The notes below the pieces were generated by a model. It worked only from the letters and a program-made list of their open reading frames with translations. It was not told the DNA's origin and searched no databases. A stretch of 33,320 nucleotides of DNA from a virus, in IMG/VR virus record IMGVR_UViG_3300014903_000001, positions 1 to 33,320 of that record; one strand, given 5' to 3'. Each line of letters opens with the position of its first letter. The stretch's first letter is position 1. Of the stretch, positions 2,698 to 33,320 are shown piece by piece. The position numbers and the translations under genes were made by a program.

Positions 2698-3393
2698 TTA
2701 CACCCTTCGAAGTGTGAGATTCAAACTATATAGTTTCTTAGTTAGGGTATTCCTTACGAGGATCGACTGTAAGCCATTTATAGACTTACCTGTGAGTACA
2801 TAGCTGTTCACAAGGCCGTTCGTGTCATACATCGTAATTGTGTGCCCCTCAGCAGCATTTGCATACCACAGTTCCACCCCAAGTTTTTCATCTTGGGTTA
2901 CAAAGTCGTACATAATATTCTGAGTCGGCAGGTTTGCAAATACAACCTGTTTAACCTGACCCCTGATACCAACACCTTGGTCAGTTATCATCTCACGGCC
3001 TTCTTGACCTATTTTATTCAAATAAGGTAACCAAAGTAGCCCAACAGGTCTTCGTGTTGCAATGTGGTTTACTAAAGGTGTATATGTTTTATTGCTATCA
3101 AACCCTAATAAATTCCATAAGGTATCACTTGAGGATGATATATCCGCTCCAAAGCTATTAAAAAAATAAGGTAACCAAGGTAAACCAACACCATGCACAT
3201 AACCATCTGAATTCAAACTTAAAACGACATCCCCGGCAAGTTCTGTGTTCATGGCATCTAAGATGCTATAGATTGTAGGGTATGTGCCTACAGGTATGGC
3301 ATGAGAACCTATTATAGAATCGGTATAAAAGGTAACATCTGAGTAAGAAAACCCCTCATCTGATAATTCTTGTTCTACGTGAAATTCAATCAT
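2698..3393 (-). CDS. Distal tail protein following the tape measure
   Basis: The product has 231 residues and starts at an ATG that overlaps the tape measure stop by four bases (ATGA), implying coupled translation. It contains GTYPTIYSILDAMNTELA near residue 37 and WNLLGFDSNKT near residue 93, the same two landmarks in the same order as in the next gene (2696-1953). A PVGLLWLPYLN segment occurs mid-protein, echoed earlier as VGLPWLPYFFN, which may be an internal repeat. In siphoviruses the gene after the tape measure usually encodes the distal tail (Dit-like) protein. The placement fits but the sequence alone does not prove it. Confidence 0.7.
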   Translation of the reverse strand: MIEFHVEQELSDEGFSYSDVTFYTDSIIGSHAIPVGTYPTIYSILDAMNTELAGDVVLSLNSDGYVHGVGLPWLPYFFNSFGADISSSSDTLWNLLGFDSNKTYTPLVNHIATRRPVGLLWLPYLNKIGQEGREMITDQGVGIRGQVKQVVFANLPTQNIMYDFVTQDEKLGVELWYANAAEGHTITMYDTNGLVNSYVLTGKSINGLQSILVRNTLTKKLYSLNLTLRRV

Positions 3394-9735: not shown

Positions 9736-10674
9736 TTAGGATGCTTTAATACCACGAAGACAAGCAGCCCCATCAGGACGGTGAAGGATTAAAGCACCAC
9801 GCAGGGACATGTCTTGACGATAGTTGGCATTGTCCGGAGACGGGAACAGAATCTCAGACAGAGTAAGGACTTTTTTAACTGCAAAAGCAGTACCTTCAGT
9901 GTCGTCCCAGTTAACGGCCACGATAGAACCACAGTCATCATCATCTCCAACAGTTTCATTAAAGCCAAGTACCTGGGTTTTACCAATTTTTTCAACCGTG
10001 TGAATTGGAATTCCACTGAAGAAGTAGACTTTCTTACCAAACTCATCAGGACCATAAGTGATCTGACTCTGATCGTTCATCAAACCTTGAACTTCACGTT
10101 GCATAGGCTTGGACATGTATAGGGCATTTGGTCCACCATATACGGCATCAACCAAATCTTGAAGATCTGATTCCTTCAAAACAGCACCAGCAGAGCCAGC
10201 ACCGTCTGTGTAGAACAAGTTCTGAAGCTCTGTGGCATCGGTCTGAGTGCAAAGTTTGAAGATACCATTGAACTTTTCGCTGTTTGCAGAAGTATCACCA
10301 TAGAAAAAATCAACGGTAAGCTGGTTAGAGATAGCCTTAGCATGTGAAATCTGCTTCTCTAACATGATATCAGCTAAGTCACGGGGGTCATCTTCCACAT
10401 TCTCTTGAGCAATTTTGATTGCTGTTTCGAGTTTCTTAGGTGCCACTTCAAATGGTGCTGTACCATTTGTAGAAGAGGGTGCTTTTTGACCGATAGCCGG
10501 ATAATCAACGTCAGGAAGGGTTACTTCTAACTCCCATTCATAAGTTTTTCTGGCCCCCATGTCAACCATCAACATGTCTTGTATGATAATAGTCTGTGCG
10601 GCAAAGATACTTGTAACCGTAGGGGTTTCAGAGTTCTGAGCCATTTGCTGTGCATTATAACGTGTTACTGCCAT
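9736..10674 (-). CDS. Major capsid protein, HK97-fold type
   Basis: The product has 312 residues. A long helical stretch near residues 80-120 (KKLETAIKIAQENVEDDPRD, the spine-helix region) is followed by the typical mid-to-late pattern GGPNALYMSKPMQREVQGLM and then GIPIHTVEKIGKTQVLGF, a layout seen across HK97-fold capsid proteins (test-residue strand, then a GIPI loop). Placement after a scaffold-like gene and downstream of terminase and portal supports the call. Length fits a capsid protein with a separate scaffold. The fold assignment is from pattern recognition; no crosslinking residues were assessed. Confidence 0.88.
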   Translation of the reverse strand: MAVTRYNAQQMAQNSETPTVTSIFAAQTIIIQDMLMVDMGARKTYEWELEVTLPDVDYPAIGQKAPSSTNGTAPFEVAPKKLETAIKIAQENVEDDPRDLADIMLEKQISHAKAISNQLTVDFFYGDTSANSEKFNGIFKLCTQTDATELQNLFYTDGAGSAGAVLKESDLQDLVDAVYGGPNALYMSKPMQREVQGLMNDQSQITYGPDEFGKKVYFFSGIPIHTVEKIGKTQVLGFNETVGDDDDCGSIVAVNWDDTEGTAFAVKKVLTLSEILFPSPDNANYRQDMSLRGALILHRPDGAACLRGIKAS

Positions 10675-12106: not shown

Positions 12107-13519
12107 TTATTCCTCAATAGGCTCTGGTTCAGCCTGAATGTTCTTTATAGTTTCCAGCTCTTTTCTAGCATCATCGAGGCTTATACCACGTTCCTCAGCT
12201 CTAATCTCTACAGCAGATGTAATACCCATTGCAATTTCTTGGGACTGTAACGCACGTAACTCGGTAGGAGCTATCTCACTTACTGGTGGTTTAAAGGTCG
12301 TAATGACTCTTACACCTTCAAGTAGTGGTGCAGATGGATGGTCTACCACGGATGCCATTTCAAACAGCATAGGCATCAGCTTGGACTCTTCTAAACGCTT
12401 GAAGTATCTCTGCATCTTCTTGATGAACTTACGAGTTTGGGTGTCTCTATAGTATTGAGCAATTCCAGACTCTGCAACTAAATCGTCAGCCCATGCTTTA
12501 GGCAAAAATCTACTCTGCCCAAATAGGTTCAATGTTACCTGCATATCACGGTTATATTGCTCAGTTTGAGGATCAAAATCAACTGAGTGTAAATCTCCTG
12601 CACCTGATATAATAGAACTAGCACTCAATCCAATATTATTGGGTATACCCTCCATGTCGGTAACATATGGCACAGGTTCTTTTAGCTTAATCCAATAAGA
12701 TCGGGCTGTCCGTCTCCAACAGTACCAATATGAAATATCTAATAAATCATAAGGTGCATCAACAAAAATATCACCCCTTTGTGGTATTTCCGATTGGGAA
12801 AGCACCATAGGGTATAGGCTCATAGTCTTATATTTATTAAGATCAGCTTGAGTATCTTCATCAACCTCGATAGGGTTATAACCAGAGTCTGCTATCCACA
12901 CGTTTAACTCATTAGTTTCCCTGTCAAGCTGGTATATCCAATAACCTTGAGCATTAGGTCGTGAAACAAAAGTCTCGGTGTTATCGGCCATAGGAACAGC
13001 AATAAATTGAGAAGAGTAGAAGTTTGAAGCGTCTGCTCCTTGTATTAGAGCTGGTAATGAACTTTCAACGACTTCCATTCTAAACTTATTCTCAGGGAAA
13101 TTAGGAACGCAATGGATGATAGAGCTATTCAATAGATTAGTCCTAGTCTCATTGTGTGGCATCATCTCATAATAACCAACATCAGTGAGTAGTTTGTCGA
13201 AAGCACTATAACGAGGGTCATCTAATGGTATTGCTGCATCATTTTCGTCTATTAGGTTGTGTATTGGCTCAGATTCATATGCTTGGCTTAACTCACCTAT
13301 TACACGTTTAGTGGTCTGGGTTACGAATGAATGTTGTAATAGCCCTGATTTATTGCTTGAATCTTTATATAAGTTGTTGATATGCTGGTCTAAATTAGTT
13401 TTAAACTCAGCCCCGCCATCATAAGCTGCCAATAATTCTTCAGTTTTCTTAGCGTAAGCATCATGGCCGGAGCCTCTGGCTTGTGTAATTGACCTTTGAA
13501 ATGTGTTACTGACTGCCAT
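12107..13519 (-). CDS. Portal protein
   Basis: The product has 470 residues, the usual portal size. It follows the large terminase gene with a 14-base gap and precedes the scaffold and capsid genes. The sequence is mixed alpha/beta with many aromatic residues in the middle (the wing and clip region), then long helices near residues 340-390 (RKFIKKMQRYFKRLEES), and ends with ITSAVEIRAEERGISLDDARKE, a pattern common in portal C-termini (short helix, G-S, D-ARKEL). The portal forms the dodecameric ring through which terminase packs DNA. The assignment rests on order, length and C-terminal pattern. Confidence 0.85.
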   Translation of the reverse strand: MAVSNTFQRSITQARGSGHDAYAKKTEELLAAYDGGAEFKTNLDQHINNLYKDSSNKSGLLQHSFVTQTTKRVIGELSQAYESEPIHNLIDENDAAIPLDDPRYSAFDKLLTDVGYYEMMPHNETRTNLLNSSIIHCVPNFPENKFRMEVVESSLPALIQGADASNFYSSQFIAVPMADNTETFVSRPNAQGYWIYQLDRETNELNVWIADSGYNPIEVDEDTQADLNKYKTMSLYPMVLSQSEIPQRGDIFVDAPYDLLDISYWYCWRRTARSYWIKLKEPVPYVTDMEGIPNNIGLSASSIISGAGDLHSVDFDPQTEQYNRDMQVTLNLFGQSRFLPKAWADDLVAESGIAQYYRDTQTRKFIKKMQRYFKRLEESKLMPMLFEMASVVDHPSAPLLEGVRVITTFKPPVSEIAPTELRALQSQEIAMGITSAVEIRAEERGISLDDARKELETIKNIQAEPEPIEE

Positions 13520-16277: not shown

Positions 16278-16706
16278 ATGTCTAATAAAATAACGTCTAA
16301 GGAATGTAATAATTGTTATGATCCAAAAATGCTTCTAAATTGGTTTCCTCCATCAACCCTGATAGGATTGGATGTCATAAAGGTTGACCATGTAGAATTA
16401 GATGTAATAAATCCATCTCAAACTCTTCCAACTATGTTAGTGGAACAGGTCAAGGATAATTTTTTTACTGATAAAGATCAACATCTTTGGAATCTATGGT
16501 TGGATGACTATGGCTCCCAAATACATCTTTTAAGCTCTGGGAAAGATGAAGTAAGGTGTTATTATAGGATCGAACGTAATGATGGCACATGGTGGCAGTC
16601 AGAGCCCTATCATCTACGTTCTGAGATTGATGTTATTGGGTTTATTTCATTGGTATTAACTAAGTATGATGACATTGTAATGGATACCACACCACTCTAC
16701 ACTTAA
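16278..16706 (+). CDS. Unknown stand-alone plus-strand protein (moron-like)
   Basis: The product has 142 residues, starts at ATG 16278 with TAGGAGAA before it. It is cytoplasmic-looking, rich in Trp and Asp (WLDDYGSQIHLL, WWQSEPYHLR), has cysteines early (ECNNCYDP), and no membrane segment. The gene runs against all neighbours, between the late operon and the winged-helix cluster, and is closed by a perfect terminator hairpin five bases after its stop. An isolated cistron with its own control region and terminator is the pattern of a moron, often used for host takeover, exclusion of other phages or anti-defence. I recognise no domain and assign no function. Confidence 0.75.
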   Translation: MSNKITSKECNNCYDPKMLLNWFPPSTLIGLDVIKVDHVELDVINPSQTLPTMLVEQVKDNFFTDKDQHLWNLWLDDYGSQIHLLSSGKDEVRCYYRIERNDGTWWQSEPYHLRSEIDVIGFISLVLTKYDDIVMDTTPLYT

Positions 16707-16710
16707 ACTA

Positions 16711-16744
16711 AAAACCCCACTAGAACTTAATCTAGTGGGGTTTT
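16711..16744. terminator. Perfect bidirectional terminator
   Basis: AAAACCCCACTAGA (16711-16724) pairs exactly with TCTAGTGGGGTTTT (16731-16744), a 14-bp stem with a six-base loop. The A-run on the left and T-run on the right give U-tracts in both directions. It separates the convergent genes ending at 16706 (plus) and 16765 (minus). Confidence 0.93.
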
Positions 16745-16764
16745 GCTTTCTTTGGTGTGGGGGG

Positions 16765-17493
16765 TTATATCTTGCTGTTGATTAGGTTTATCATCGTAGG
16801 ATCAAGTTCCTGAAAACGCACTATGTAACTCAGCCCCCAAACCTTACGGATAGGTCTTAAATATCCTTTTGCTCTCAACCGATAGATTGCTTTTTCCAAG
16901 TTGCCTACAACATAACCGCCCCTGCTACCTGTGTCATAATTGATAATTACGGCCAGCTCCTTATGCGACACAGGTCTCTGAAGCAAGTCTCCATATAAAG
17001 TATAGAATGTCAGAATACGTGTTTCCATCGAACCCTGACGAATCAAATGATCTAGGCCACTCCAGCAGCTTCCTGAAACTGGGTCTGCCAGCTCGTCTAC
17101 AGCAGTTAGTTTAGGTTGTGATTCCCCAAACATTGCTAAAACGGTAGAAGGAAGGTCCCCAACTTCCTTTGAATGGCGTAGTGTGCCGGAAGTTGGGGGT
17201 TTATTGGAGGAGATGCTCGGGAGGTTAATCCGAGCGGGTTGGTTAAATTCATTCTTAAACCATTTAGATGTACGCTTTTGTTTGGCAGTAGGTTCAGGTG
17301 GGTTTGCCATAAAAGCTTCGTCTATAATGTATGTCCTCTCGGTAGGCTCTGCTGGGGCTGTGAAGCATCCCTTATGCTCTTCATGTTGCTCTACGGCTTG
17401 TTTTGGCTCTTTTACCAGCATTGTCATCACCTCGCCAAAGGCTTTAAGAGCTATGTTCAAGTTCTCTTGCTTCTGGGTTTCTAATTTCGTCAT
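16765..17493 (-). CDS. Winged-helix family protein, paralogue 4
   Basis: The product has 242 residues from the ATG at 17493, which has GGAGGAA at the right distance; a TTG at 17508 is less likely. Residues up to about 145 are low-complexity and probably disordered. The C-terminal 100 residues hold a winged-helix-like module: METRILTFYTLYGDLL, then VSHKELAVIINYDTGS, NLEKAIYRLRAKGYLRPI and a final TMINLINSKI. The same order of segments occurs in the proteins at 19956, 19621 and 18195. A terminator upstream (17643-17677) suggests it is transcribed from its own promoter. DNA binding is likely; replication or regulatory role is undecided. Confidence 0.8.
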   Translation of the reverse strand: MTKLETQKQENLNIALKAFGEVMTMLVKEPKQAVEQHEEHKGCFTAPAEPTERTYIIDEAFMANPPEPTAKQKRTSKWFKNEFNQPARINLPSISSNKPPTSGTLRHSKEVGDLPSTVLAMFGESQPKLTAVDELADPVSGSCWSGLDHLIRQGSMETRILTFYTLYGDLLQRPVSHKELAVIINYDTGSRGGYVVGNLEKAIYRLRAKGYLRPIRKVWGLSYIVRFQELDPTMINLINSKI

Positions 17494-18706: not shown

Positions 18707-19621
18707 TTAAAGATTGTTTACGCTTCTTTTTTCTTGTTTTTCCTCTGGGTCTGCTAACTCAGAGGATTTTTTTTGTTGTAGTATTACAACTTTTTGCTCA
18801 GATTCTCGAATACCCTCTAGGTGTTCTTGTAAATCATCATAGATATATGGACCTTCAAATACTTTGCCCTGTTCAGGTATCACTGCCCACTTAGCATCAG
18901 TTTTAAGGTAAACACTTAAAGCCTTCAAAGCAAACCCAATAACAGATTTAGGTTTCCAATCAGGGTTCTTCTCGGTGTATTGTTTCTGCACACCCATGAT
19001 AAGTGCATGTATAGCTGCCGCTTTTCTTTCATTGATGTCTTTAATCTCAGCTAGTGGGTGGCCTTTGGTGGTGATTGCATTAATGAGCTTCTTATTCCAG
19101 AACTCATGAACCCCAGGTCTATCCCAATCAAGTAATCCAGATAATGCTTTACCAGCAACCCCATTAAACCAAGCTATTGGAACATCAGGTAAGTCTTTGT
19201 AGGTTATGTTCCTACCCTTGAGTTCCGCAGTGTCTGATAAGTTACAGCAAATCTGGTTAGGATAAGTGAAAGGTTCTAACTCCTCTAAACGCTCATCAGA
19301 TAAATCTTCTACCTTTTCGATTGCTTGATAGCTGTGTTTATCACCTTTAAAGTTGTAAACCTTTTTCAGTTTGTTCTGCCTGATTAACTGACCCAACATG
19401 TTAGAAACTGTTTGTGGGTCTTTGTGTCCGATTAGTTTAGCTAACCCTTTAGGGTACATAACTCGGAAATAGCCATCAGGGTCACGTTGTTGGGCTTCTG
19501 TTGGCCCATGCAGCCTATAGAACCACAGAATACGCTCTGAATAAGAACCATTATTAAAAAGGTACTTATGTTCAACTAAGTGGCTGTGGTAATATTCTTC
19601 ATCATAATTCTTCTTAGCCAT
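18707..19621 (-). CDS. Winged-helix family protein, paralogue 2; candidate replication initiator
   Basis: The product has 304 residues and is the largest of the four paralogues. The shared module is at about residues 24-105: SERILWFYRLHGPTE, then YPKGLAKLIGHKDPQTVSNML (HTH), QLIRQNKLKKVYNFKG and a YQAIEKV strand. A second domain of about 170 residues (ITYKDLPDVPIAWFNGVAGK to KWAVIPEQGKVFEG) is unique to it and helical, and the last 40 residues are charged. It is the second gene of the unit reading away from the iterons at 20101-20163. No other candidate for replication initiation is visible, so an iteron-binding Rep role is proposed by elimination; a transcription regulator is the alternative. 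Confidence 0.75.
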   Translation of the reverse strand: MAKKNYDEEYYHSHLVEHKYLFNNGSYSERILWFYRLHGPTEAQQRDPDGYFRVMYPKGLAKLIGHKDPQTVSNMLGQLIRQNKLKKVYNFKGDKHSYQAIEKVEDLSDERLEELEPFTYPNQICCNLSDTAELKGRNITYKDLPDVPIAWFNGVAGKALSGLLDWDRPGVHEFWNKKLINAITTKGHPLAEIKDINERKAAAIHALIMGVQKQYTEKNPDWKPKSVIGFALKALSVYLKTDAKWAVIPEQGKVFEGPYIYDDLQEHLEGIRESEQKVVILQQKKSSELADPEEKQEKRSVNNL

Positions 19622-19623
19622 AA

Positions 19624-19956
19624 TTAACCACCCATCTTAGAATTCAACAGATCAAGAGTTTTTTCTCCTATAACAGCCATTAAAAATTCATCAAAAGGTA
19701 CTACTATCTTAGTTCCGTATTTACGTTTCAAACGTCTCTGCCTTATTAGATTCTGTATAGACTCCTTTACCTTTTTCTCTGTCACCTCTTTACCTGTTAT
19801 ATTATAAGACTCCAGAACCACTGTAACTTCTTTGTACTCCCAATAGATAGCCCTACCATTGTCACCTACTGAGCATAATCTATAAAACCAAAGTACTCTT
19901 TGCATTAAAGCTCCATCTGCTAACACTAACTGTAAATCCTCTAAGTTCTGTTTCAT
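19624..19956 (-). CDS. Winged-helix family protein, paralogue 1 (minimal form)
   Basis: The product has 110 residues and is essentially the bare module: MQRVLWFYRLCSVGD near residue 18, a helix pair ending in EKKVKESIQNLIRQRRLKRKYG, a strand KIVVPFDEFL and the terminal TLDLLNSKM that also ends paralogues 3 and 4. It is the first gene of the leftward unit, with an AGGAGAAGG ribosome binding site and a TTGACA-type promoter 40-80 bases upstream next to the iterons. A short DNA-binding protein at this place could autoregulate the unit or act with the iterons. Two bases separate it from the next ATG. Confidence 0.8.
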   Translation of the reverse strand: MKQNLEDLQLVLADGALMQRVLWFYRLCSVGDNGRAIYWEYKEVTVVLESYNITGKEVTEKKVKESIQNLIRQRRLKRKYGTKIVVPFDEFLMAVIGEKTLDLLNSKMGG

Positions 19957-20003
19957 ATTCCTTCTCCTGTTTTATTTTTAATTACAACTCCCAACCTCAT
20001 TAA

Positions 20004-20032
20004 CCATATCAGCTTTTAAACTGCTTGTCAAT
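20004..20032 (-). promoter_or_regulatory. Leftward early promoter
   Basis: On the minus strand TTGACA (20032-20027) is followed after exactly 17 bases by TATGGT (20009-20004). The -35 is perfect and the -10 matches four of six. The start would be near 19997, about 40 bases before the ATG at 19956. The iterons lie about 70 bases upstream. Confidence 0.75.
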
Positions 20033-20086
20033 CTTTTTTATTATTTTTTATTTGTTATATTAAATAACATTAAATTTTACCGTTCT
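20031..20086. other. AT-rich stretch beside the iterons (possible unwinding element)
   Basis: The segment is nearly pure A/T with runs such as TTTTTTATTATTTTTTATTTG and only a few G or C. AT-rich DNA adjoining iterons is the standard layout of plasmid-type origins, where it melts first. I saw no consensus DnaA box nearby. The role is inferred from position. Confidence 0.5.
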
Positions 20087-20087
20087 T

Positions 20088-20195
20088 ACATAGATTATGT
20101 AGTGTCCTATATAATCTATGTAGTGTCCTATATAATCTATGTAGTGTCCTATATAATCTATGTAGGGTTACCTCAAATCATATATAATTTATGTA
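20088..20195. repeat. Iteron array: three perfect 21-bp tandem repeats plus flanking half-copies
   Basis: Three identical 21-base units occupy 20101-20121, 20122-20142 and 20143-20163; each begins AGTGTCCTATATAATCTATG and ends in T. The flanks hold an inverted partial copy (ACATAGATTATGT, 20088-20100) and a degenerate copy (ATATAATTTATGTA, 20182-20195). A 21-base period equals two helical turns, so bound proteins would sit on one face, as with replication iterons. Operator sites for the divergent promoters are the alternative. Confidence 0.92.
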
Positions 20196-20343
20196 CCCTT
20201 TATAGTAACACCTGTTTTAACTAATAAGAATACTAAATAAAGACTACTAATCCAAGTGTCCTTCGGACTCTTTTGGGTTTTCTTTGGGTTTTGTGCTGAA
20301 CGCACTAAGAGTTTTGGGTTTTCCGTTCTTTAATAAATAAAAA
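20196..20343. other. Gene-free segment with small stems and TTGGGTTTT repeats
   Basis: No open frame is present. GTCC-TTC-GGAC (near 20259) and GTGC-TGAAC-GCAC (near 20295) form two small stems. The motif TTGGGTTTT occurs three times between about 20270 and 20322. These could belong to the origin region, but nothing assigns a function. Confidence 0.45.
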
Positions 20344-20615
20344 CCTAATAGGGGTGGAACCATAAACCAAATAATAATATAAAACGGGATAATATAAACC
20401 TAACAGGGGGTGGAGAAAATAACCAATAGGATGATATCAAATAGAACTTAACAGGGAAGAAAGGAGAAAACCAATAGGGATAGGATATCTAATAGGGAAG
20501 AATACAAAGAGAAGGAGACGGGAATAAACCAATAGGATAATATCAAAGGGAACCTAACAAGGAAAACAGAATGGAGACGGTAAGGATAGCTTAACAAGGA
20601 AGAATATAGAGACGG
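20344..20615. repeat. Degenerate A/G-rich repeat array, non-coding
   Basis: Six copies of a C(C/T)TAA(C/T)A(G/A)GG(G/A) element start at about 20344, 20399, 20447, 20488, 20553 and 20590, spaced 37-65 bases apart. Between them lie three or four copies of a second element, ACCAATAGGATAATATCAAA and variants (20421, 20469, 20527), and three copies of a GGAGACGG element (20514, 20573, 20607). The strand shown is strongly purine-rich. No frame is open. The array could be a centromere-like, packaging or origin-accessory site. Confidence 0.75.
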
Positions 20616-20819
20616 CTCCATCCCTTAATTGATTAATAATAGTCAAAGCCCGCTCGAAATCCAATAACAGATAAACCAACCATCATAAACCTATCAGAAT
20701 CGACGTAGGTTCAATGGAGAGCCACTTTAAGACTTAAAGGTATGTACTAGGTAGGGTTCACAATTTAAAAGGGCTTAGAACGTCTATTAAGCATTTTGAT
20801 AAAATAAACTAAATAATAG
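20616..20819. other. Gene-free upstream region of the rightward unit, with a palindrome
   Basis: No open frame. CTTTAAG-A-CTTAAAG at 20725-20739 is a perfect 7-1-7 palindrome about 80 bases upstream of the rightward promoter and may be an operator. Nothing else stands out. Confidence 0.45.
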
Positions 20820-20848
20820 TTGACATAGATGTTTATTGATGGTAGGGT
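20820..20848 (+). promoter_or_regulatory. Rightward early promoter
   Basis: TTGACA (20820-20825), a 17-base spacer, then TAGGGT (20843-20848) preceded by TG one base away, so an extended -10 compensates for the weak hexamer. The start would fall near 20855, some 36 bases before the ATG at 20891. The ribosome binding site is AAAGGAG (20877-20883). Confidence 0.6.
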
Positions 20849-20890
20849 AGATGTAGAGATTGTTACTGATATTTATAAAGGAGTTAAGAT

Positions 20891-21091
20891 ATGACCAGAA
20901 CTTATGTTGGAGCTAAAGAACTTGCTGAGGTGTTAGGGGTTTCGGCCCAAACGGTTGATAGGTTGACTCGGCAGAAATTGATCCCCTTCATTGAAATCCC
21001 TGGATTAGAGCGGAAAATGAAGAGGTACAATATAGAAGCAGTTGCTCAACATCTAATGTTTAGTCCAGATCCAGATAGTGAAGGGGAATAA
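20891..21091 (+). CDS. Small MerR/excisionase-type HTH protein
   Basis: The product has 66 residues. YVGAKELAEVLGVSAQTVDRL (about residues 5-25) is a clear helix-turn-helix, followed by TRQKLIPFIEIPGLERKMKRY, the wing of the HTH_17/excisionase fold, and YNIEAVAQHL. It is the first gene of the rightward unit and has a strong ribosome binding site. No integrase is present, so a transcription regulator of the divergent region is more likely than a recombination directionality factor. Confidence 0.85.
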   Translation: MTRTYVGAKELAEVLGVSAQTVDRLTRQKLIPFIEIPGLERKMKRYNIEAVAQHLMFSPDPDSEGE

Positions 21092-22192: not shown

Positions 22193-22969
22193 ATGAATAA
22201 ATACCGAATCCAAACCCATCATCTGAAACCACATACAAAGAAAAATATAATACAGTTCATAGGCTTAGGGGATCTGCATATAGGATCAAACACCTGTGAC
22301 ATGGAAATGATTAAGTCTGTTGTCAAACGGTGTCTACGTAGAAAGATATATGTTATTGGGATGGGTGACTACATGGAAATGGCCACTAAAACAAGTCCAG
22401 GGAATAGCCTTGGAACCCAAAAAACACCACCACGTGGCCAGATAGATCAGGTAATTGAGTTATTTAAACCATTGCAAGAACGTGGGTTTCTGCTTGGGAT
22501 GCATTCCGGGAATCATGAAGATCGAGTCATGAAAGCTGTCAATTTTGACATCACCTCTGTGATAGCTGAAGGAGTAGATGCCGTGAGCCTCCCAGCCACC
22601 GCCTATCATGCAATAAGAGTTAGTCCTAGGTTAGTTTATGTAGTATACACCACTCACGGCTCAGGGGGTGCTCAGAAGACTTTAACCAAGTTGGCAGCAG
22701 CCCAACGTAAACATGAATCCATAGAGGCGGATATAGTATTGATGGGACACGTTCACGAGTCAGCTAGTTGCTGCTTCGAGAAGTTTGTACCTAATTTCCA
22801 AACAGGTATTGTAGAAAGACATGAAAAATGGTCAGTCCTAACAGGGTCTTATATGAGGTATCATAACAGTTATGCGGATGGGAAGTATGCCCCAGGAATG
22901 TTGGGGACTCAGTTGGTAACTCTGAATGCCCTGAAGCATCAAATAAAATGTGAAAGATTTGAGGTTTAA
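22193..22969 (+). CDS. Calcineurin-like metallophosphoesterase
   Basis: The product has 258 residues and all dimetal phosphoesterase motifs: GDLHIG (D27, H29), GMGDY (D59), GNHED (106-110), TTHGSGG (H155) and GHVHES (185-190). The family includes nucleases (Mre11/SbcD), phosphoprotein phosphatases and cyclic nucleotide phosphodiesterases, so the substrate cannot be read from the motifs. It lacks the capping domain of SbcD and no SbcC partner is present. It has a good ribosome binding site (AAGGAGAA) and is immediately followed by the Ntn-hydrolase gene (TAA then ATG, no gap), so the two are probably made together. Confidence 0.92.
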   Translation: MNKYRIQTHHLKPHTKKNIIQFIGLGDLHIGSNTCDMEMIKSVVKRCLRRKIYVIGMGDYMEMATKTSPGNSLGTQKTPPRGQIDQVIELFKPLQERGFLLGMHSGNHEDRVMKAVNFDITSVIAEGVDAVSLPATAYHAIRVSPRLVYVVYTTHGSGGAQKTLTKLAAAQRKHESIEADIVLMGHVHESASCCFEKFVPNFQTGIVERHEKWSVLTGSYMRYHNSYADGKYAPGMLGTQLVTLNALKHQIKCERFEV

Positions 22970-23518
22970 ATGACAATTATTGCAGGTTACAGATCAAAGA
23001 ATGGTAAGAAAGCGTGGTTGGCCAGTGACTCAATCGGGAGTGCTGAAACACATCTTGAAGACTATGGTAATAAAATCATTTCAAGAAAAAACTGGATATG
23101 TGGCCTAGCAGGTAGTTATCGAGCTTTTGACCTGATTAAGGAATCCCCTGAATTAAATATAGACCTCCATGGTATTTCGGGTATTAGAACCTTCAGAGAC
23201 ACCCTAAAACAGATAAGGATAGAGGATGGGTCTATAGGGCAGTCTTCAGACACCGAGACTATTGTCCATGATGTAAATTTGTTGGTGAGCTATGAAGGCT
23301 TATTATTCGTTTTAGAGACTGACTATCAAATCCATAAGATATCTAAAAATGGAATAATAACTGCTGGCTCAGGGTATGCTTATGCTTCAGGTGCATTGTT
23401 TGCTGGTCTTAGGAATGGTATTGTAGGTAGAGATTTAGTTAAATTAGGGGTTGAGGCTAGCAAAAAATACCATGCACTTTGTGGTGGTAGAACTTTTATT
23501 AGGTCTACAGAGAAATAA
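22970..23518 (+). CDS. HslV/proteasome beta-like Ntn-hydrolase
   Basis: The product has 182 residues. Removal of Met1 would expose Thr2, the Ntn nucleophile position. Further landmarks fit the proteasome beta/HslV fold: ASDS (D20), NKII (K35, the lysine next to Thr1), ICGLAGSYRA (43-52), and the AGSGYAYASGALFAGL strand-helix (132-147, S134). In the last helix region the usual Asp and Ser of the catalytic support pair correspond to H168 and C171 (KYHALCGG), an unusual substitution. No HslU partner is encoded. Similar stand-alone HslV-like genes occur in phages; whether this one is an active peptidase is open. Confidence 0.85.
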   Translation: MTIIAGYRSKNGKKAWLASDSIGSAETHLEDYGNKIISRKNWICGLAGSYRAFDLIKESPELNIDLHGISGIRTFRDTLKQIRIEDGSIGQSSDTETIVHDVNLLVSYEGLLFVLETDYQIHKISKNGIITAGSGYAYASGALFAGLRNGIVGRDLVKLGVEASKKYHALCGGRTFIRSTEK

Positions 23519-24173: not shown

Positions 24174-24362
24174 TTATACCCGCCTATTTGGTAGTTTATC
24201 AATCAGCTTGCCGCCTAAAACAAGTAAGGTTGCCAAGGCCGATAGTTCATGGTCAACTGGTACATAACCAAGGCTCATGGCACCAATCAGGGTTAGAACA
24301 ACTGTTATGGGGGTCATGGAGCCTATTAGGGTTGCAACGCCCTGAACTCTATCAATGCTCAT
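24174..24362 (-). CDS. Holin-like protein with two membrane segments
   Basis: The product has 62 residues with a GGAGGAG ribosome binding site; the start overlaps the preceding gene by 11 bases. Two hydrophobic helices, about residues 8-29 (GVATLIGSMTPITVVLTLIG) and 40-52, are joined by a short turn (YVPVDHE), and the C-terminus is basic (KLIDKLPNRRV). This is the usual topology of class II holins. The gene lies after the fibre genes and next to a membrane-anchored coiled-coil protein, as a lysis cassette would. No endolysin is recognisable nearby. Confidence 0.65.
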   Translation of the reverse strand: MSIDRVQGVATLIGSMTPITVVLTLIGAMSLGYVPVDHELSALATLLVLGGKLIDKLPNRRV

Positions 24363-24720
24363 GATTCTCCTCCATTATTTCAACTAATCTTTTGATCACT
24401 CCGACATCTTCTTTGATTTGGCTGGACTGCTCTACTAGGGCAGTTAGTTGTTGGTCCATCTTATTTACTAGGCTTAAGTCAGCTTTGGCGGACAGGGCTG
24501 CTTTATCAGCTTTCCCATCAACTCGATCACCCAACTTAATCATCAGGGTTAAGTCAGCTTTCCCGTTGATTTGAGTTTGCTGGGCAGCTACTGCTTTATT
24601 AATAGGTTCGATGGATGTACCATAATATAGTGTCGCCCAGGCTATTAAGATAGTAAGGAACAACGCCCCAACTTTTGCTAAATTACTCCACGTTATCATA
24701 TTCTTCAACTCCAGTTTCAT
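24352..24720 (-). CDS. Membrane-anchored coiled-coil protein (lysis accessory or spanin-like)
   Basis: The product has 122 residues from ATG 24720, which has AAGGGG upstream; an upstream GTG at 24765 lies inside the preceding gene and is less likely. A membrane helix at about residues 14-33 (LAKVGALFLTILIAWATLYY) follows a short positive N-terminus, so the rest should be periplasmic. The rest is coiled coil with repeated KADL units (NGKADLTLMIKL, DGKADKAALSAKADLSLVNK) and ends ENHEH. Topology matches inner-membrane spanin (Rz-like) and hemolysin XhlA-like accessory proteins. It overlaps the holin-like gene, supporting a lysis role; no outer-membrane spanin partner is evident. Confidence 0.6.
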   Translation of the reverse strand: MKLELKNMITWSNLAKVGALFLTILIAWATLYYGTSIEPINKAVAAQQTQINGKADLTLMIKLGDRVDGKADKAALSAKADLSLVNKMDQQLTALVEQSSQIKEDVGVIKRLVEIMEENHEH

Positions 24721-24734
24721 AATATAGTGTCCCC

Positions 24735-25514
24735 TTAAAGGAAACTTGATTGGGTAGCAAAACACATGTATGTTCCTTTAATACCAAAAGTACCTACTTG
24801 ATCCTGTATGTCAGGACCGTCATCAGCCACAAGACTAAATGTTAGTTTGCATAAGAGGGGGTCATTTTGCTGAGAATATTCTTCAATGATAGCATCTATT
24901 CTTCCTCGTTTATCTGTTAATTCAATATAAAATTCTACATCACCCGAACCATCAGGGTCACTTGTTAGTGGGTTTAGTTGGGCTGTCTTATTCAGTAATA
25001 GAACACCATCTATATTAAACAAAGATAGATTTAAATCTGAGAGATTGTCACTTATATTAGTCCGAACCTTAAGAAACATTGCATATCTTGAAGGCCAAAA
25101 CTGAAAGAAATCAGAATCCCAATATTCAAGGTTTGCTTCCAAATTTAAGGTATCCCACGCACCGTACATAGGTGCTGGGTATTTCATTCTGTATGTAAGA
25201 TCTTCAATTATTGCAGGTTCGTTCAGAAGTGCACCACTTATGAAAATACCTCTTGGGATGGTTTCAACCCATTTAAGGAATTTACCAGACCTTGACTTGA
25301 TTCCATTGTTTTCCCAATAGGCTCCCGTGTGGTTATATGAAATATCCCCACCAGGTACTCCATCAAAAGGGTGTTGTCTGAGATATGCTTCATATAAATA
25401 TTTCCAGTTTTTGTAGAATTGGTGGACAGATGAACCGTAAACCGGAGCACCCATATAGAAGTTATCATTTGGTAGGGCTTGAAAAGCATTGTAATCATCT
25501 TGTATAACTGGCAT
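24735..25514 (-). CDS. Tail-associated protein of unknown function
   Basis: The product has 259 residues, starts MPVIQDDYNAFQALPNDNFY. It is aromatic-rich in the first 140 residues (NWKYLYEAYLRQH, AWDTLNLEANLEYWDSDFFQ) and beta-rich after that (VRTNISDNLSDLNLSLFNI, VEFYIELTDKRGRI), with no membrane segment. It is the last gene of the fibre block before the membrane genes. A receptor-binding or fibre-associated role is possible; I find no glycosidase or peptidase motif. Confidence 0.65.
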   Translation of the reverse strand: MPVIQDDYNAFQALPNDNFYMGAPVYGSSVHQFYKNWKYLYEAYLRQHPFDGVPGGDISYNHTGAYWENNGIKSRSGKFLKWVETIPRGIFISGALLNEPAIIEDLTYRMKYPAPMYGAWDTLNLEANLEYWDSDFFQFWPSRYAMFLKVRTNISDNLSDLNLSLFNIDGVLLLNKTAQLNPLTSDPDGSGDVEFYIELTDKRGRIDAIIEEYSQQNDPLLCKLTFSLVADDGPDIQDQVGTFGIKGTYMCFATQSSFL

Positions 25515-25537: not shown

Positions 25538-25567
25538 TTGACTTATAAAACCTGTATGGTGTATAGA
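25538..25567 (+). promoter_or_regulatory. Promoter for the plus-strand lipoprotein gene
   Basis: TTGACT (25538-25543) is followed after 18 bases by TATAGA (25562-25567). It lies 45 bases before the lipoprotein start in the gap 25515-25612, which has no other gene. Its orientation opposes the surrounding late transcription, so expression from this site can occur independently of it. Confidence 0.6.
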
Positions 25568-25612
25568 AGTAAGTAAGGTTTGGTTATTATAACATCACAA
25601 AGGAGAAGAAAG

Positions 25613-26071
25613 ATGAAAAAATTATTATTTGTTTTAGTATTTATTTTACCACTGTACTCATGCGGCGGTGAAGATACTTACTATGGTGACCCCACTATGT
25701 TCCAGTGTGTCGATAAAGTGGGTATCTTCGAGTACTGCCACTGTGAGAACAATTCATATTACTGTAAAGCTAATTACTACTTTACTTGTAATCATAATGC
25801 AGACTATGTAAATGAGTTCCAAGATGTCACCTCTGGGAACTACTGGTACACTGAGTACATATGGACTTGTGTTGATACCCACAGCTTATACACTGCCGAG
25901 TTTTGGCAGGGTTGGTTTGGTCAAAACTATGGGATTTCTAGCCCACCTTTTTACCATAACTCTTTATATTCTGAAGATTATAGGTGTATGGATCTCATGA
26001 TTAAGGTACACAATGCTTCAGGCCGAATCACAGCAGAACTCCAAGAATCTTTTGATTGTGTTACTTATTAA
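25613..26071 (+). CDS. Cysteine-rich lipoprotein (moron-like, possible superinfection exclusion)
   Basis: The product has 152 residues from ATG 25613, behind AAAGGAG; an ATG at 25580 lacks a site and would spoil the signal peptide. The N-terminus KKLLFVLVFILPLYSCGGED is a type II signal peptide with lipobox LYSC. The mature part is very rich in Tyr, Trp and Phe and has eight more cysteines, an even number that suits disulfides in the periplasm or outer membrane surface. It has its own promoter and terminator and runs against the late genes. Phage lipoproteins such as T5 Llp block receptors; that role is a hypothesis here. No known domain is recognised. Confidence 0.85.
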   Translation: MKKLLFVLVFILPLYSCGGEDTYYGDPTMFQCVDKVGIFEYCHCENNSYYCKANYYFTCNHNADYVNEFQDVTSGNYWYTEYIWTCVDTHSLYTAEFWQGWFGQNYGISSPPFYHNSLYSEDYRCMDLMIKVHNASGRITAELQESFDCVTY

Positions 26072-27117
26072 GGTTTGAATTCCACCCGGACTTGCGGGTG
26101 GAAACCTTTATTTTCATAATCTACAAGCCATAAGTAATTCTGGATCGGGATATATCGGTTGTTCTGGGACACGTTCTCTACTTCAATACGGAATTCATGG
26201 TCAGTTCCTTTGATAGCATCAGCAAGTTTATAGATAAGTTTACGATACCTTGGGTGATCTCGATTACCCTCTGCAATAACAGAGACACTATTAGTTGGTG
26301 GTTTACCATCCGCAACTAACCGCACATCAAATAACTGAGTCCCTAAGACTGAGGCTTCTGTCTGTACTTCTGAGGTGGTATTTCCCAAATTAGAATCAAA
26401 ATACTCAATTGTACCTTTTAACATGACATACACATTTACGTAGTTTGCCCACTCAGGGACACTTAGGATGAAAGTATCAGGATCAGTTGCTCTGTTAGTG
26501 CAGTATAGGTGGGCTGCAACATTTGAAGTTAATTCTGAAGGGAGGGGGTTAAAGAGTCTCCACCACATATCTGTACCATCATCAGTGAATTCACGAGCAA
26601 CTTGAAATAGGTAATCCTCACCAAAAAATGTCATAAACATAGGTTGCTGCTCAGTAAAATCAAGAAGAGGGTTTGCAGTTTCTATGTTATTTGTTTTAAT
26701 TATTGTGGTAGTTGAGCCACCTGAGTATGCCGTTATGGATATTGGAGCACCAACTCCAGATGCCCCCGCTCTCATCTCTTTCATACATGCAAAATCTACA
26801 GTGTTTGTCAGGAAATTGTTCATGGGGTTTAGCATGATATTTTTAATCCCTGAAGATCCTAGGCCATCTAATACCATGTGAGGTTCAGTAGTGTGCCCTA
26901 TGATGTGTGATTCATAAAAGGGTATAGTGTAACCAGGGTCATGATCGTGACCTGTACCAGGAGTCCCCTCGATGTCTGTACCTGTTGCTATTTCAGCTAA
27001 ACCATTGATATTCTCAGCAAGGTCTTGAATGACATTACTATTTATAGTCTCATCCCCTTCAATACCAATAAAATCATTCTGAGAGTACTCGTGGTTTTCG
27101 GCATGTTTAATTGTCAT
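26068..27117 (-). CDS. Tail fibre-like protein with HDH motif
   Basis: The product has 349 residues. The N-terminal 45 residues are helical (NSNVIQDLAENINGLAEIA), then GTGHDHDPG at about residues 54-62 resembles the metal-binding HxH motif found in trimeric phage fibres. The remainder is beta-rich. Its ATG overlaps the stop of the preceding fibre gene by one base, and its 3' end overlaps the convergent lipoprotein gene by four bases; its last codons contain that gene's terminator hairpin. A receptor-binding or fibre role is inferred from composition and context. Confidence 0.7.
   Translation of the reverse strand: MTIKHAENHEYSQNDFIGIEGDETINSNVIQDLAENINGLAEIATGTDIEGTPGTGHDHDPGYTIPFYESHIIGHTTEPHMVLDGLGSSGIKNIMLNPMNNFLTNTVDFACMKEMRAGASGVGAPISITAYSGGSTTTIIKTNNIETANPLLDFTEQQPMFMTFFGEDYLFQVAREFTDDGTDMWWRLFNPLPSELTSNVAAHLYCTNRATDPDTFILSVPEWANYVNVYVMLKGTIEYFDSNLGNTTSEVQTEASVLGTQLFDVRLVADGKPPTNSVSVIAEGNRDHPRYRKLIYKLADAIKGTDHEFRIEVENVSQNNRYIPIQNYLWLVDYENKGFHPQVRVEFKP
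26071..26114 (+). terminator. Terminator of the lipoprotein gene
   Basis: TTCCACCCG (26080-26088) pairs exactly with CGGGTGGAA (26095-26103) around GACTTG, with AGGT (26071-26074) and ACCT (26104-26107) adding an outer stem across a bulge, followed by TTTATTTT. It starts at the stop codon of the lipoprotein gene and lies within the 3' coding end of the convergent fibre gene. Confidence 0.85.
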
Positions 27118-28037: not shown

Positions 28038-29279
28038 TTATAAAACCTCTAAGAATCCATCATCTGTAACAGGGCTCCATTTCAGATAACCCCTAAAAGT
28101 ACCAGAAGACGGTGTATCCGTTGTGCTGTAAGTCATTCTGAGGTAGGTAGGTGTACCATCACCCTTCTGACCTACGATAACTTCAGTCTGAGGTTCTTTC
28201 CAAGCTGCATTCTCACTTATAAATCCGTTAGCACCTGACTGGTAATCTAGGATTTCATCTGAGGCAGCATTACGTGTTATCAATGATCCAGCAGGTGCAT
28301 TACTTAGGTCTAAAGTGGTGACTTTGCTGATAGGTGTACTTGTAGACCCATCCCAAATATCCAGATAGAAGTCTGTGATGTTAGATGATAAAGCAACTAA
28401 AATCTGTATGTGTACCTTAGACAGCTTTACAGAACCATAAATCTGAGCCACGTTGTAAGACTTGGTTTCGTTCGAGGCATCAATGGAAGCTAAACTTGTA
28501 GCCACATTATGGAACGTGAAGTTCGACCATTCATTTGCCAAGTCGATGTCTCTTGATTTACCATCACCAATACCAGAGTTACAGTCTTTAACAGTCCAAC
28601 CTGAAACGCCAGAGGCTAAATGATAACCTCCAAGGCCACAACCTATGGTAAAGCATCTATCTAAGACACCAAAAGTACTGGCATTGTTGACGTAGATGCC
28701 ATATGATGCATTATCACCTGCAACTCCACATTCTTTAGCTGTGATCTTAGTACCTTTTATGTCAATACCCCTACCACCAGCTTTAATACCTGCAACCTTA
28801 CAGTTGAATAAGTCAAGGACTGCACCAGCTGCTAGAATACCTGTAGAGCTTGCATCACCTAAAACGATAGTATCACCTAAATAGCAACCAGTGCCTGTAA
28901 TATTAACACCGATTTCATCTGCTGATGGCATCACTGTAACAGGACCACACAAACAGCAGTAGTCACCGCTGAGTAGAATACCAGTACCAGAGGCAGGGTT
29001 AATCACCGAACCTAGGTCACAATGGATGTCACAGCCATCAATGGCTAATTCCAGCCCTGATTCAGTGTAAGTTCCAGCAGCAAGTTTAATACAGTCACCT
29101 TCAGCCAACTGAGCAATAGCAGCACCTATAGTCTTAAAAGGTACATATGTACTTTTACCAGTGTTTTCATCATCACCAACCGATTGATTTACATAGTAGA
29201 TATCACCAGTTGTTTGATCTATTCGGGCTACTTCTTTAGGTGTGTAACCACACCCGCCACTTTTACCGTAGTTTCCCAT
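28038..29279 (-). CDS. Tail spike with right-handed beta-helix
   Basis: The product has 413 residues. After MGNYGKSGGCGYTPKEVA comes the usual beta-helix entry YVNQSVGDDENTGKSTYVPF-KTIGAAIAQLAEGDCIKLAAGTY, with short repeated turns rich in Gly, Asn and Cys through about residue 245 (pectate-lyase/tailspike fold). The C-terminal 150 residues are a separate beta domain (receptor-binding or trimerisation). Such spikes bind, and sometimes cut, cell-surface polysaccharide; catalytic residues cannot be picked out by eye. Its first eleven residues nearly match those of the upstream protein (30089-29283), suggesting a shared docking peptide. Confidence 0.8.
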   Translation of the reverse strand: MGNYGKSGGCGYTPKEVARIDQTTGDIYYVNQSVGDDENTGKSTYVPFKTIGAAIAQLAEGDCIKLAAGTYTESGLELAIDGCDIHCDLGSVINPASGTGILLSGDYCCLCGPVTVMPSADEIGVNITGTGCYLGDTIVLGDASSTGILAAGAVLDLFNCKVAGIKAGGRGIDIKGTKITAKECGVAGDNASYGIYVNNASTFGVLDRCFTIGCGLGGYHLASGVSGWTVKDCNSGIGDGKSRDIDLANEWSNFTFHNVATSLASIDASNETKSYNVAQIYGSVKLSKVHIQILVALSSNITDFYLDIWDGSTSTPISKVTTLDLSNAPAGSLITRNAASDEILDYQSGANGFISENAAWKEPQTEVIVGQKGDGTPTYLRMTYSTTDTPSSGTFRGYLKWSPVTDDGFLEVL

Positions 29280-29282
29280 TGT

Positions 29283-30089
29283 TTACCCCTCATACCCATG
29301 TATACCATAGTAGAAGTCCACTGTTTTAGCTGATTCCCCAAGTGTCATGCACTGTGCCCAAATCTTGGCATCGAAATCTATACGGGGCATCTGAATTTCA
29401 ATGGGGCCGCTATCAATCTGATTTGATTGAGCTTTTATGACTACTTCGGTTAAAAATACTCGTGCTGCGGATTCACCCTGATAGAACCTAACAAAGGTTA
29501 CGGCAGTTGTACTGACATCATCAACCATCATTCTATGAGCATCACCTTTCACGAACCCTTGGGTTGTAGTGTCCTCGGAACCATGGATAAGAACAAAGTT
29601 ACCATAATCACTAGTGCCACCTAGGAGCTGAAAAGCCACCACGCCAGGACCTATTCTATCAGCAACATGTACCTCAAGATCAGGGGTTACAGCTGCTCCA
29701 AACCAATACTCAGAGCTATGATTATGTCTGTCATTCTCAGCTATCCCATAACTGAGAGAATTAGGTACACCTAAAAGGCCATTACCTGGGGCTAAATCCA
29801 TCTTATTGGTTTCAGTCTTGATAGATTGTATCTTATCAGTCTCTGTGAGGATAGACGGGATCTTATCTGTCTCTGTTTTGATATCAGGTAGAAGGTCTGT
29901 GTCTAGCTTAATATCAGGTATTTTGTCAGTTTCAGTGACAATAGAATCTATCTTGTCTGTGTCCTCAATAATAGAGGGGATCTTATCTGTCTCGGTCTTG
30001 ATGGCAGGTAGGAGATCCGTATCTGTCTCTATGTCATCAAGTTGCTGTTGGTTTATACCACAGCCACCACTTTTACCATAGTTTGCCAT
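29283..30089 (-). CDS. Tail fibre protein with decapeptide repeat stalk
   Basis: The product has 268 residues. It begins MANYGKSGGCGIN, then residues 20-99 are eight exact-length ten-residue repeats of the form I-x-T-E-T-D-K-I-P-S, probably a helical or triple-stranded stalk. The C-terminal 165 residues are beta-rich (globular tip). Its start overlaps the preceding stop by one base. The opening NYGKSGGCG is shared with the next gene (29279), which points to a common attachment point on the tail. The likely role is a fibre or adaptor. Confidence 0.78.
   Translation of the reverse strand: MANYGKSGGCGINQQQLDDIETDTDLLPAIKTETDKIPSIIEDTDKIDSIVTETDKIPDIKLDTDLLPDIKTETDKIPSILTETDKIQSIKTETNKMDLAPGNGLLGVPNSLSYGIAENDRHNHSSEYWFGAAVTPDLEVHVADRIGPGVVAFQLLGGTSDYGNFVLIHGSEDTTTQGFVKGDAHRMMVDDVSTTAVTFVRFYQGESAARVFLTEVVIKAQSNQIDSGPIEIQMPRIDFDAKIWAQCMTLGESAKTVDFYYGIHGYEG
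29793..30032 (-). repeat. Eight tandem 30-bp coding repeats (decapeptide stalk)
   Basis: The codons for residues 20-99 of the 268-residue fibre protein form eight consecutive 30-bp units encoding IxTETDKIPS-like decapeptides. The DNA copies are diverged, so the repeat is maintained at the protein level. Slippage between copies could change stalk length. Confidence 0.85.
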
Positions 30090-31900: not shown

Positions 31901-33320
31901 TTAAATATTAACGTAATAGTAACCTTCATCATCTGCTGTACCAAGAACACCATCATCATCAGCCAAGAAAGTAAGTTTCTTAATGAAAGCTGTTGATATC
32001 TGACCATCCCATGCAGGTGACTTCAAGTAATCCCCTAATGCGGGTACAATAACTGTTGGTGCTGATACAAAGGTGATAACCGTCTCACCAGCAGTCCAAC
32101 CAACCTGTACAGCGGCTACCTCTAAAGTTTCATAAGCAACTGCTGATACTGTTCTATGTTCAATCATCAACTTGTCACCAACCTCCAATATTTCATTAGG
32201 GGCAGCACCAGTTGCATCTGGGTCTATATAAACAAAGTTTTTACGGTGTAATATAGTGTCTGTACCACTCGAAACTGTTATTGTCTTAGCTACAGCATTA
32301 TAATCTGTAACAATAAGACCTAAGTTGAACCCACCATACCTGTTTTCATTTTTAGGTACTATTACAAGCTCAACTTCATCTGAAATTAAAGACCTTTTGA
32401 TTGATATAACATCATGAAGTCTCTCAGTGATGCCTCTTGTCCCATCACCTGAAGGCAATAAAGAATGGGTAAGCTCAACAATATCCCCTATATTTATGTC
32501 ACTGTACTCAGATTTAGGTACCATGAGAGTAACAGAGTACAAGAAACGATCATATCTTCTAGCCTGAGACACTGCAAAATTAAAAGCCCAAGTATCGTAA
32601 CTACCACCAGATAGATAAGGTGAGTATCTGCCATGATAGTCGTGTGCCTTAAGAGCAGTTTGGTGATCTTCAGAACGGAACACATCGGTTATTTCACCGT
32701 TAAAGTTCACGATTAATTTAGATTTGTTTTCGTCCTTAGCCGGATGCCCATCAAACTCTATAATAGAACGCTTGATTCGGGCTTTCTCATCCCACTTGAT
32801 TGTGGGTTTATCTGTGACGCTTGTATCGGCCTCTAGGATGGTGTAATCAGCCTCTTGATGTACCATTAGGTCTTTCAGCCTGCCGATGCTTAAACGTCCA
32901 TTATTGTCTGTATAAAGGAATCTATTCATACCTTTTAGAATATTGTCAATCAATTCTCTATAAGATTTTTTTGCATCTGATACTGAAAGGAATGAACTCC
33001 CGTATTTAAAGGGGTTAATTCTTTGGTCTTCGTTGAAAGACTCGACATTGATTGTATCTCCACCTAAGTTCAGAGAGTAGTTAGGTATTTGAGTATGGTT
33101 ACCCACAATTCGATTGTACTCACCTAAAATAGCTAAAACAAACTGATAAGGGTTATCTAATTGCTCAACCCCATCTTTTGATGTCAGAACCTGTTCAAAT
33201 GTGGTACCACCATCATACTGACCTAGAGTTGTACCCCACATAGCTCTGCCAAGTGCTACACCAGTATCACTTTCACCACCTTCGACAGTGAAAATATCTA
33301 TACCTAAAACTGTGACAACA
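31901..33320 (-). CDS. Tail hub / host-specificity-like protein, C-terminal part (continues from position 123/1)
   Basis: The frame is open to the right edge and is the continuation of the gene that starts at 1952; the apparent ATG at 33241 (MWGTTLGQ) is internal, not the start. This part contains alpha/beta segments such as KSYRELIDNILKGMNRFLYT and SQARRYDRFLYSVTLMVPKS followed by INIGDIVEL, which resemble the barrel and strand layout of baseplate hub proteins. The full product of 1082 residues would sit at the tail tip below the distal tail proteins. The last 90 residues are beta-rich and acidic at the end (LADDDGVLGTADDEGYYYVN). Confidence 0.75.
   Translation of the reverse strand, partial: VVTVLGIDIFTVEGGESDTGVALGRAMWGTTLGQYDGGTTFEQVLTSKDGVEQLDNPYQFVLAILGEYNRIVGNHTQIPNYSLNLGGDTINVESFNEDQRINPFKYGSSFLSVSDAKKSYRELIDNILKGMNRFLYTDNNGRLSIGRLKDLMVHQEADYTILEADTSVTDKPTIKWDEKARIKRSIIEFDGHPAKDENKSKLIVNFNGEITDVFRSEDHQTALKAHDYHGRYSPYLSGGSYDTWAFNFAVSQARRYDRFLYSVTLMVPKSEYSDINIGDIVELTHSLLPSGDGTRGITERLHDVISIKRSLISDEVELVIVPKNENRYGGFNLGLIVTDYNAVAKTITVSSGTDTILHRKNFVYIDPDATGAAPNEILEVGDKLMIEHRTVSAVAYETLEVAAVQVGWTAGETVITFVSAPTVIVPALGDYLKSPAWDGQISTAFIKKLTFLADDDGVLGTADDEGYYYVNI
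33198..33320. repeat. Right copy of 123-bp terminal direct repeat
   Basis: Identical to bases 1-123. The join lies inside the tail hub gene and keeps its frame, showing that the window is one full turn of a circular or circularly permuted genome. Confidence 0.95.

Follow-up and report, generated by a model that had tools for sequence, protein, structure and literature searches.

Setting of the locus

What is a complete lipoprotein gene doing on the opposite strand of a phage's late operon, and does its place there say anything about its function? The window analysed here spans the entire virus record, 33,320 bases in all. It begins and ends with the same 123 bases (1-123 = 33198-33320), a terminal overlap which makes a complete, circular phage genome of ~33.2 kb probable. 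The minus-strand gene at 3-1952 continues across the record ends into 33241-31901, and the long minus-strand operon likewise crosses them, into 33241-23717. No tRNA genes were found in the 33,320-base window and the Rfam search gave no match. Two landmarks could be named, with few other named genes in the genome:

13534-14841, terminase (PHROG match)
9736-10674, capsid protein (PHROG match)

The locus itself consists of one plus-strand gene between two minus-strand genes:

24735-25514, minus strand, divergent neighbour of 259 aa, no family match, in the place that oad takes beside llp in T5
25613-26071, plus strand, cysteine-rich lipoprotein gene of 152 aa (open reading frame, lipobox and ribosome binding site)
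26068-27117, minus strand, convergent neighbour of 349 aa, a tail-operon gene with no family match

The lipoprotein gene diverges from 24735-25514 across a gap of 98 bp, and its stop codon overlaps that of 26068-27117. The antisense orientation given in the preliminary description is therefore correct. Its statement that the gene lies between fibre genes holds for the placement between two minus-strand genes; the fibre identity was inferred, as neither neighbour matches a family, and our searches returned no relatives of either. Weak tail-fibre and DUF1565 matches were found elsewhere in the operon, for 28038-29279. This gene and the tail gene that follows it (29283-30089) have their first 24 residues in common (M-x-N-Y-G-K-S-G-G-C-G..., 50% identity), as if both products plug into one attachment point. 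The possibility that the two neighbours are paralogues of other tail genes was considered and rejected.

Relatives of the phage, with or without a gene at this site, were searched for with both neighbours, the terminase, the capsid protein, a portal-sized protein (12107-13519), the protein at 22193-22969 and the DNA as queries. None was found by the protein queries or the DNA search; the matches were all distant and fell to the terminase, the capsid protein and the exonuclease, and in one viral contig the match, at 35%, is confined to the exonuclease-like protein 22193-22969. Directly after this exonuclease-like gene stands an HslV-peptidase-like gene (22970-23518; PHROG 1040, E 3.6e-12).

The lipoprotein gene and its product

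The gene at 25613-26071 is a real, well-formed orphan. Its ATG at 25613 is preceded, 7 nt upstream, by the good ribosome binding site aaggag (25600-25605, plus strand), and the TTG start at 25580 chosen by the ORF finder is unlikely because this aaggag stands between the TTG and the ATG. No minus-strand ORF longer than 42 aa exists in the stretch that the gene fills, and its codon usage is like that of the other genes (score 0.059, with the 43 genes spanning -0.037 to 0.105). The lipobox and the eight further cysteines that had been described were confirmed from the sequence, and the predicted product has the following parts:

residues 1-16, signal peptide, with lipobox LYSC at 14-17 and the lipid-bearing Cys17 (lipoprotein signal MKKLLFVLVFILPLYSC; in silico)
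25661-26068, plus strand, predicted mature protein of 136 aa, with Cys17 and the cysteines 32, 42, 44, 51, 59, 86, 125 and 149

The signal has a charged n-region and a hydrophobic core before the LYSC at 14-17, and in silico it reads as a signal peptidase II signal. The eight further cysteines are an even number, which would fit disulfides formed outside the cytoplasm. Cysteine makes up 5.9% of the protein, the second-highest share among the 43 genes (the other 42 average 1.2%), and its aromatic share of 21.1% is the highest of the 43. Internal repeats were rejected, as 411 of 500 shuffles equalled the best candidate.

Of the 106 ORFs in the genome that reach 50 aa, this is the sole credible lipoprotein gene. 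A strict lipobox scan of these ORFs found it and 5163-5330; the latter lacks a ribosome binding site and lies antisense within the long minus-strand gene 3390-5363, which likely encodes the tape measure, and it was taken as chance. A looser scan listed nine ORFs, and again only 25613-26071 was judged credible.

A lone lipoprotein in a phage genome could be an o-spanin, which forms the outer-membrane part of a two-component spanin; its partner in lysis might here be a membrane protein encoded on the minus strand, for example 24352-24720. Sequence inspection of 24352-24720, our guess for the i-spanin, showed a hydrophobic segment at the N terminus and a periplasmic part that is likely coiled. 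Excerpts of PMC6139136 also record spanin pairs with separated genes, and separated o-spanins that are beta-rich. Like the protein described here, Rz1-like two-component o-spanins are phage outer-membrane lipoproteins with periplasmic cysteines, but their genes come with that of an i-spanin, in an embedded, overlapped or separated arrangement, whereas this gene lies on the strand opposite to the late genes, with 24735-25514 intervening before 24352-24720. Its eight periplasmic cysteines also compare with at most four in the o-spanins of 526 two-component spanins, as tabulated in that source (PMC6139136, Table 9). We regard an o-spanin identity as unlikely, indeed as very improbable. A unimolecular spanin was ruled out by inspection, the lipoprotein having no C-terminal hydrophobic segment.

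Transcription signals

The gene had been described as a complete cassette with its own promoter and terminator. The 3′ signal is well defined and the promoter is not:

25538-25567, plus strand, weak promoter candidate TTGACT-18-TATAGA, scoring 5.61, more sigma-70-like than any other site in the gap
26080-26103, plus strand, intrinsic terminator hairpin, located within the 3′ codons of 26068-27117 and followed by a T-rich tail

The promoter candidate is no better than chance, as 311 of 500 dinucleotide shuffles of the 98-bp gap score equally, and the consensus promoter scan listed no plus-strand promoter in this gap. By the same measure, far better sites are found at the two early regions: TTGACA-17-TATGGT at 20031 (minus strand) scores 11.9 and TTGACA-17-TAGGGT at 20820 (plus strand) scores 10.9, against 5.6 before the lipoprotein gene. 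A perfect 21-bp tandem repeat of 3.3 copies (TATGTAGTGTCCTATATAATC) was also found, at 20096-20165. It looks like origin iterons and lies in 934 bp of non-coding DNA (19957-20890) that separate two divergent early modules. In the same part of the genome, the proteins encoded by 18707-19621 and 19624-19956 are weakly similar (26% over 80 aa, E 0.001-0.003) and are possible replication or regulatory paralogs.

The terminator hairpin falls, as had been reported, in codons at the 3′ end of 26068-27117. With its flanks it folds at -19.8 kcal/mol (z -4.6), matched by none of 200 shuffles. Its minus-strand version folds about equally (-19.2) and has no T tract. Because the T-rich stretch is found on the plus strand only, the hairpin should end the plus-strand transcript and let the minus-strand transcript pass. 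A scan of the whole window for hairpins with a stem of at least 8 pairs, at least 5 of them G-C, and a T-rich tail gave four plus-strand sites, this one included, against an average of 0.35 on shuffled strands (20 shuffles). Two of the four (18741 and 21712) lie in coding sequence, so that the class is not exclusive to intergenic terminators and strength by itself is no proof. The first of these, at 18741-18766, resembles a terminator, its hairpin running into eight T on the plus strand, and falls within the 3′ codons of the minus-strand gene 18707-19621.

Another lone plus-strand gene, 16278-16706, encodes 142 aa with no family match and has a ribosome binding site; the terminator after it (16711-16744) is strong and scores on both strands. 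A common element before both lone plus-strand genes, GTTATTATAA, was rejected as weak, with 11 matches against 5.6 expected.

A stand-alone lipoprotein gene with its own terminator brings to mind a moron, an autonomous cassette inserted in a phage operon. The lipoprotein would then serve host fitness by altering the envelope of a cell that is infected or carries the phage, through nutrient binding or protection for example, and would not block a receptor. The second lone gene with its terminator opposes the same operon, so this genome does contain inserts of the kind. Against this, no sign of lysogeny and no integrase were found among the proteins scanned, so that a carrier state is only putative; the exclusion lipoproteins that we examined occur at such a site beside tail genes; and no relatives were found in which presence or absence of the gene at the site could be compared. 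We consider a moron for host fitness unlikely, if a serious contender. The related suggestion that the protein belongs to a lysogenic phase is not borne out, since no integrase or repressor match was obtained among the proteins scanned; the nearest thing to a lysogeny gene is a small HTH protein with weak excisionase matches (20891-21091).

Searches for homologues

No homologues of the lipoprotein were found by tblastn in phages and plasmids, and it has no match among PDB sequences or in Pfam, PHROGs, NCBIfam and PADLOC. Pattern searches gave one stretch in viral contigs, which was not confirmed, and 14 in genome contigs, none of which was confirmed. The DNA pattern for C-x-C-E-N-x-x-Y-Y-C gave three stretches in viral contigs, all in short, stop-broken frames, and these were taken as chance. 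Two single-sequence AlphaFold2 runs gave mean pLDDT values of 42.4 and 38.6, models too poor to compare or use, since models of such low pLDDT yield meaningless matches in a fold search.

Both of these poor models are mostly beta, and a predicted beta-rich protein full of cysteines and aromatic residues, encoded among tail genes, might be a tail-associated or packaged lipoprotein, or an anti-defence or exclusion protein acting at another step, such as DNA entry through the periplasm. The gene is on the strand opposite to the virion genes, however, and the absence of a PADLOC or PHROGs match also speaks against such roles, which we hold to be quite improbable.

Comparison with superinfection-exclusion lipoproteins

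The preliminary description proposed that the protein might block reinfection. We compared the locus with those of T5, T1 and Rtp, chosen because these phages are known to carry exclusion lipoproteins. According to excerpts of the respective papers, Llp of T5 binds FhuA at the periplasmic side and alters its outer loops (PMC9586334), Rtp45 likewise blocks LptD, to which it binds from the periplasm (PMC12685063), and Cor of T1 causes an early FhuA block (PMC13164509). The PDB entries for Llp and Rtp45 are 8A60 and 9RPS. A surface location, as put forward in the preliminary description, is less certain for our protein, since Llp and Rtp45 both act from the periplasmic side. Loci for receptor binding are found downstream of gpJ, and it has been suggested that exclusion proteins share this place with them, again from an excerpt (PMC8594841).

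All three exclusion lipoprotein genes examined adjoin receptor-binding or tail-tip genes and stand opposite to an adjacent tail gene. In T5, llp (AY543070 110429-110662, plus strand) is divergent from the receptor-binding gene oad (minus strand) across a 79-bp gap, compared with 98 bp here; the T5 gap carries an annotated promoter, and llp differs in having no far-side neighbour that converges on it. The rtp45 gene of Rtp (NC_007603 27687-27917, minus strand) is opposite to the gpJ homolog rtp43 (plus strand) at the tail-tip locus, although the receptor-binding gene rtp44 is co-oriented with it. Cor of T1 (ST30; NC_005833 29623-29850, minus strand) is convergent to the tail-tip genes ST31-33 (plus strand). 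The orientation of our locus, opposite to the adjacent tail gene, is as in these three phages, with 24735-25514 only a putative receptor-binding gene.

As a counter-sample, the same lipobox scan was run on six siphophages, and an annotated antisense lipoprotein beside tail genes was found in none of the six. Their credible lipobox hits are all in lysis regions and were taken as spanins; hits that were unannotated or overlapped annotated genes of the opposite strand were set aside by eye. The six are distinct records chosen non-randomly by terminase similarity among the 20 matches listed of 242, and the T5 scan covered 98000-113500 only. The 3/3 against 0/6 compares two small, non-random groups. 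In Rtp, the same scan also picked up rtp34 (16380-16766), annotated as hypothetical, on the sense strand of the tail operon; its product has 113 aa when mature, with 2 further cysteines.

The proteins themselves are less alike than the loci. Llp has 77 aa (mature 62), Rtp45 76 aa (mature 57) and Cor 75 aa (mature 59), each with two further cysteines, and the small mature size of ~60 aa common to them contrasts with the 136 aa and eight further cysteines found here. BLASTP of the lipoprotein gave no similarity to Llp and only an 8-residue alignment to Rtp45 (E 6.7), that is, chance. No cysteine-rich exclusion lipoprotein of such a kind was found in the open-licence literature searched. Lacking homology to Llp and Rtp45, about twice as long, and with eight cysteines in place of two, the protein has an exclusion-like layout and may work likewise, but we do not assign it to their family. 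The idea of a reinfection block is favoured by the layout, seen in three of three known loci and none of six siphophages, and not by homology, length or a usable fold.

A candidate receptor-blocking lipoprotein

The reading that we favour, at about even confidence and by analogy, is a single-gene cassette for a phage envelope lipoprotein, set opposite the tail operon and serving as an analogue of the superinfection-exclusion lipoproteins that block the receptor. It is favoured because position and strand resemble those at the T5, T1 and Rtp loci, which is the strongest argument to hand.

Judging by its orientation, the gene would have a transcript made earlier than, or separately from, that of the late minus-strand operon, and the hairpin at 26080-26103 would be expected to end this transcript before it runs far into 26068-27117. 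The lipobox and the even number of cysteines suggest that the product would be exported, lipidated on Cys17 and folded with at most four disulfides, and the Gly at +2 would direct it, in a diderm host, to the outer membrane. There, by analogy with Llp-FhuA and Rtp45-LptD, the lipoprotein may bind the receptor used by the phage's own tail tip. Such a block could keep sibling or related phages from adsorbing any further, and could prevent adsorption by cell debris, if the analogy holds.

More tentatively, and as less likely than not, the protein might represent a new, independently evolved class of exclusion lipoproteins, a disulfide- and tyrosine-rich, outer-membrane-anchored domain of 136 aa by which an uncharacterised lineage of phages jams its receptor. 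Should the exclusion reading be false, 25613-26071 would still be an ordinary orphan lipoprotein gene. If the independent class is real, the design of a lipoprotein opposite a tail-tip gene would have arisen more than once. If the proposed function is correct, the lipoprotein and its neighbouring tail gene would form a pair that points to a receptor and its lock in an unknown host, and gene position and strand, rather than sequence, would serve as a usable guide to receptor-blocking proteins in phages that have no relatives.
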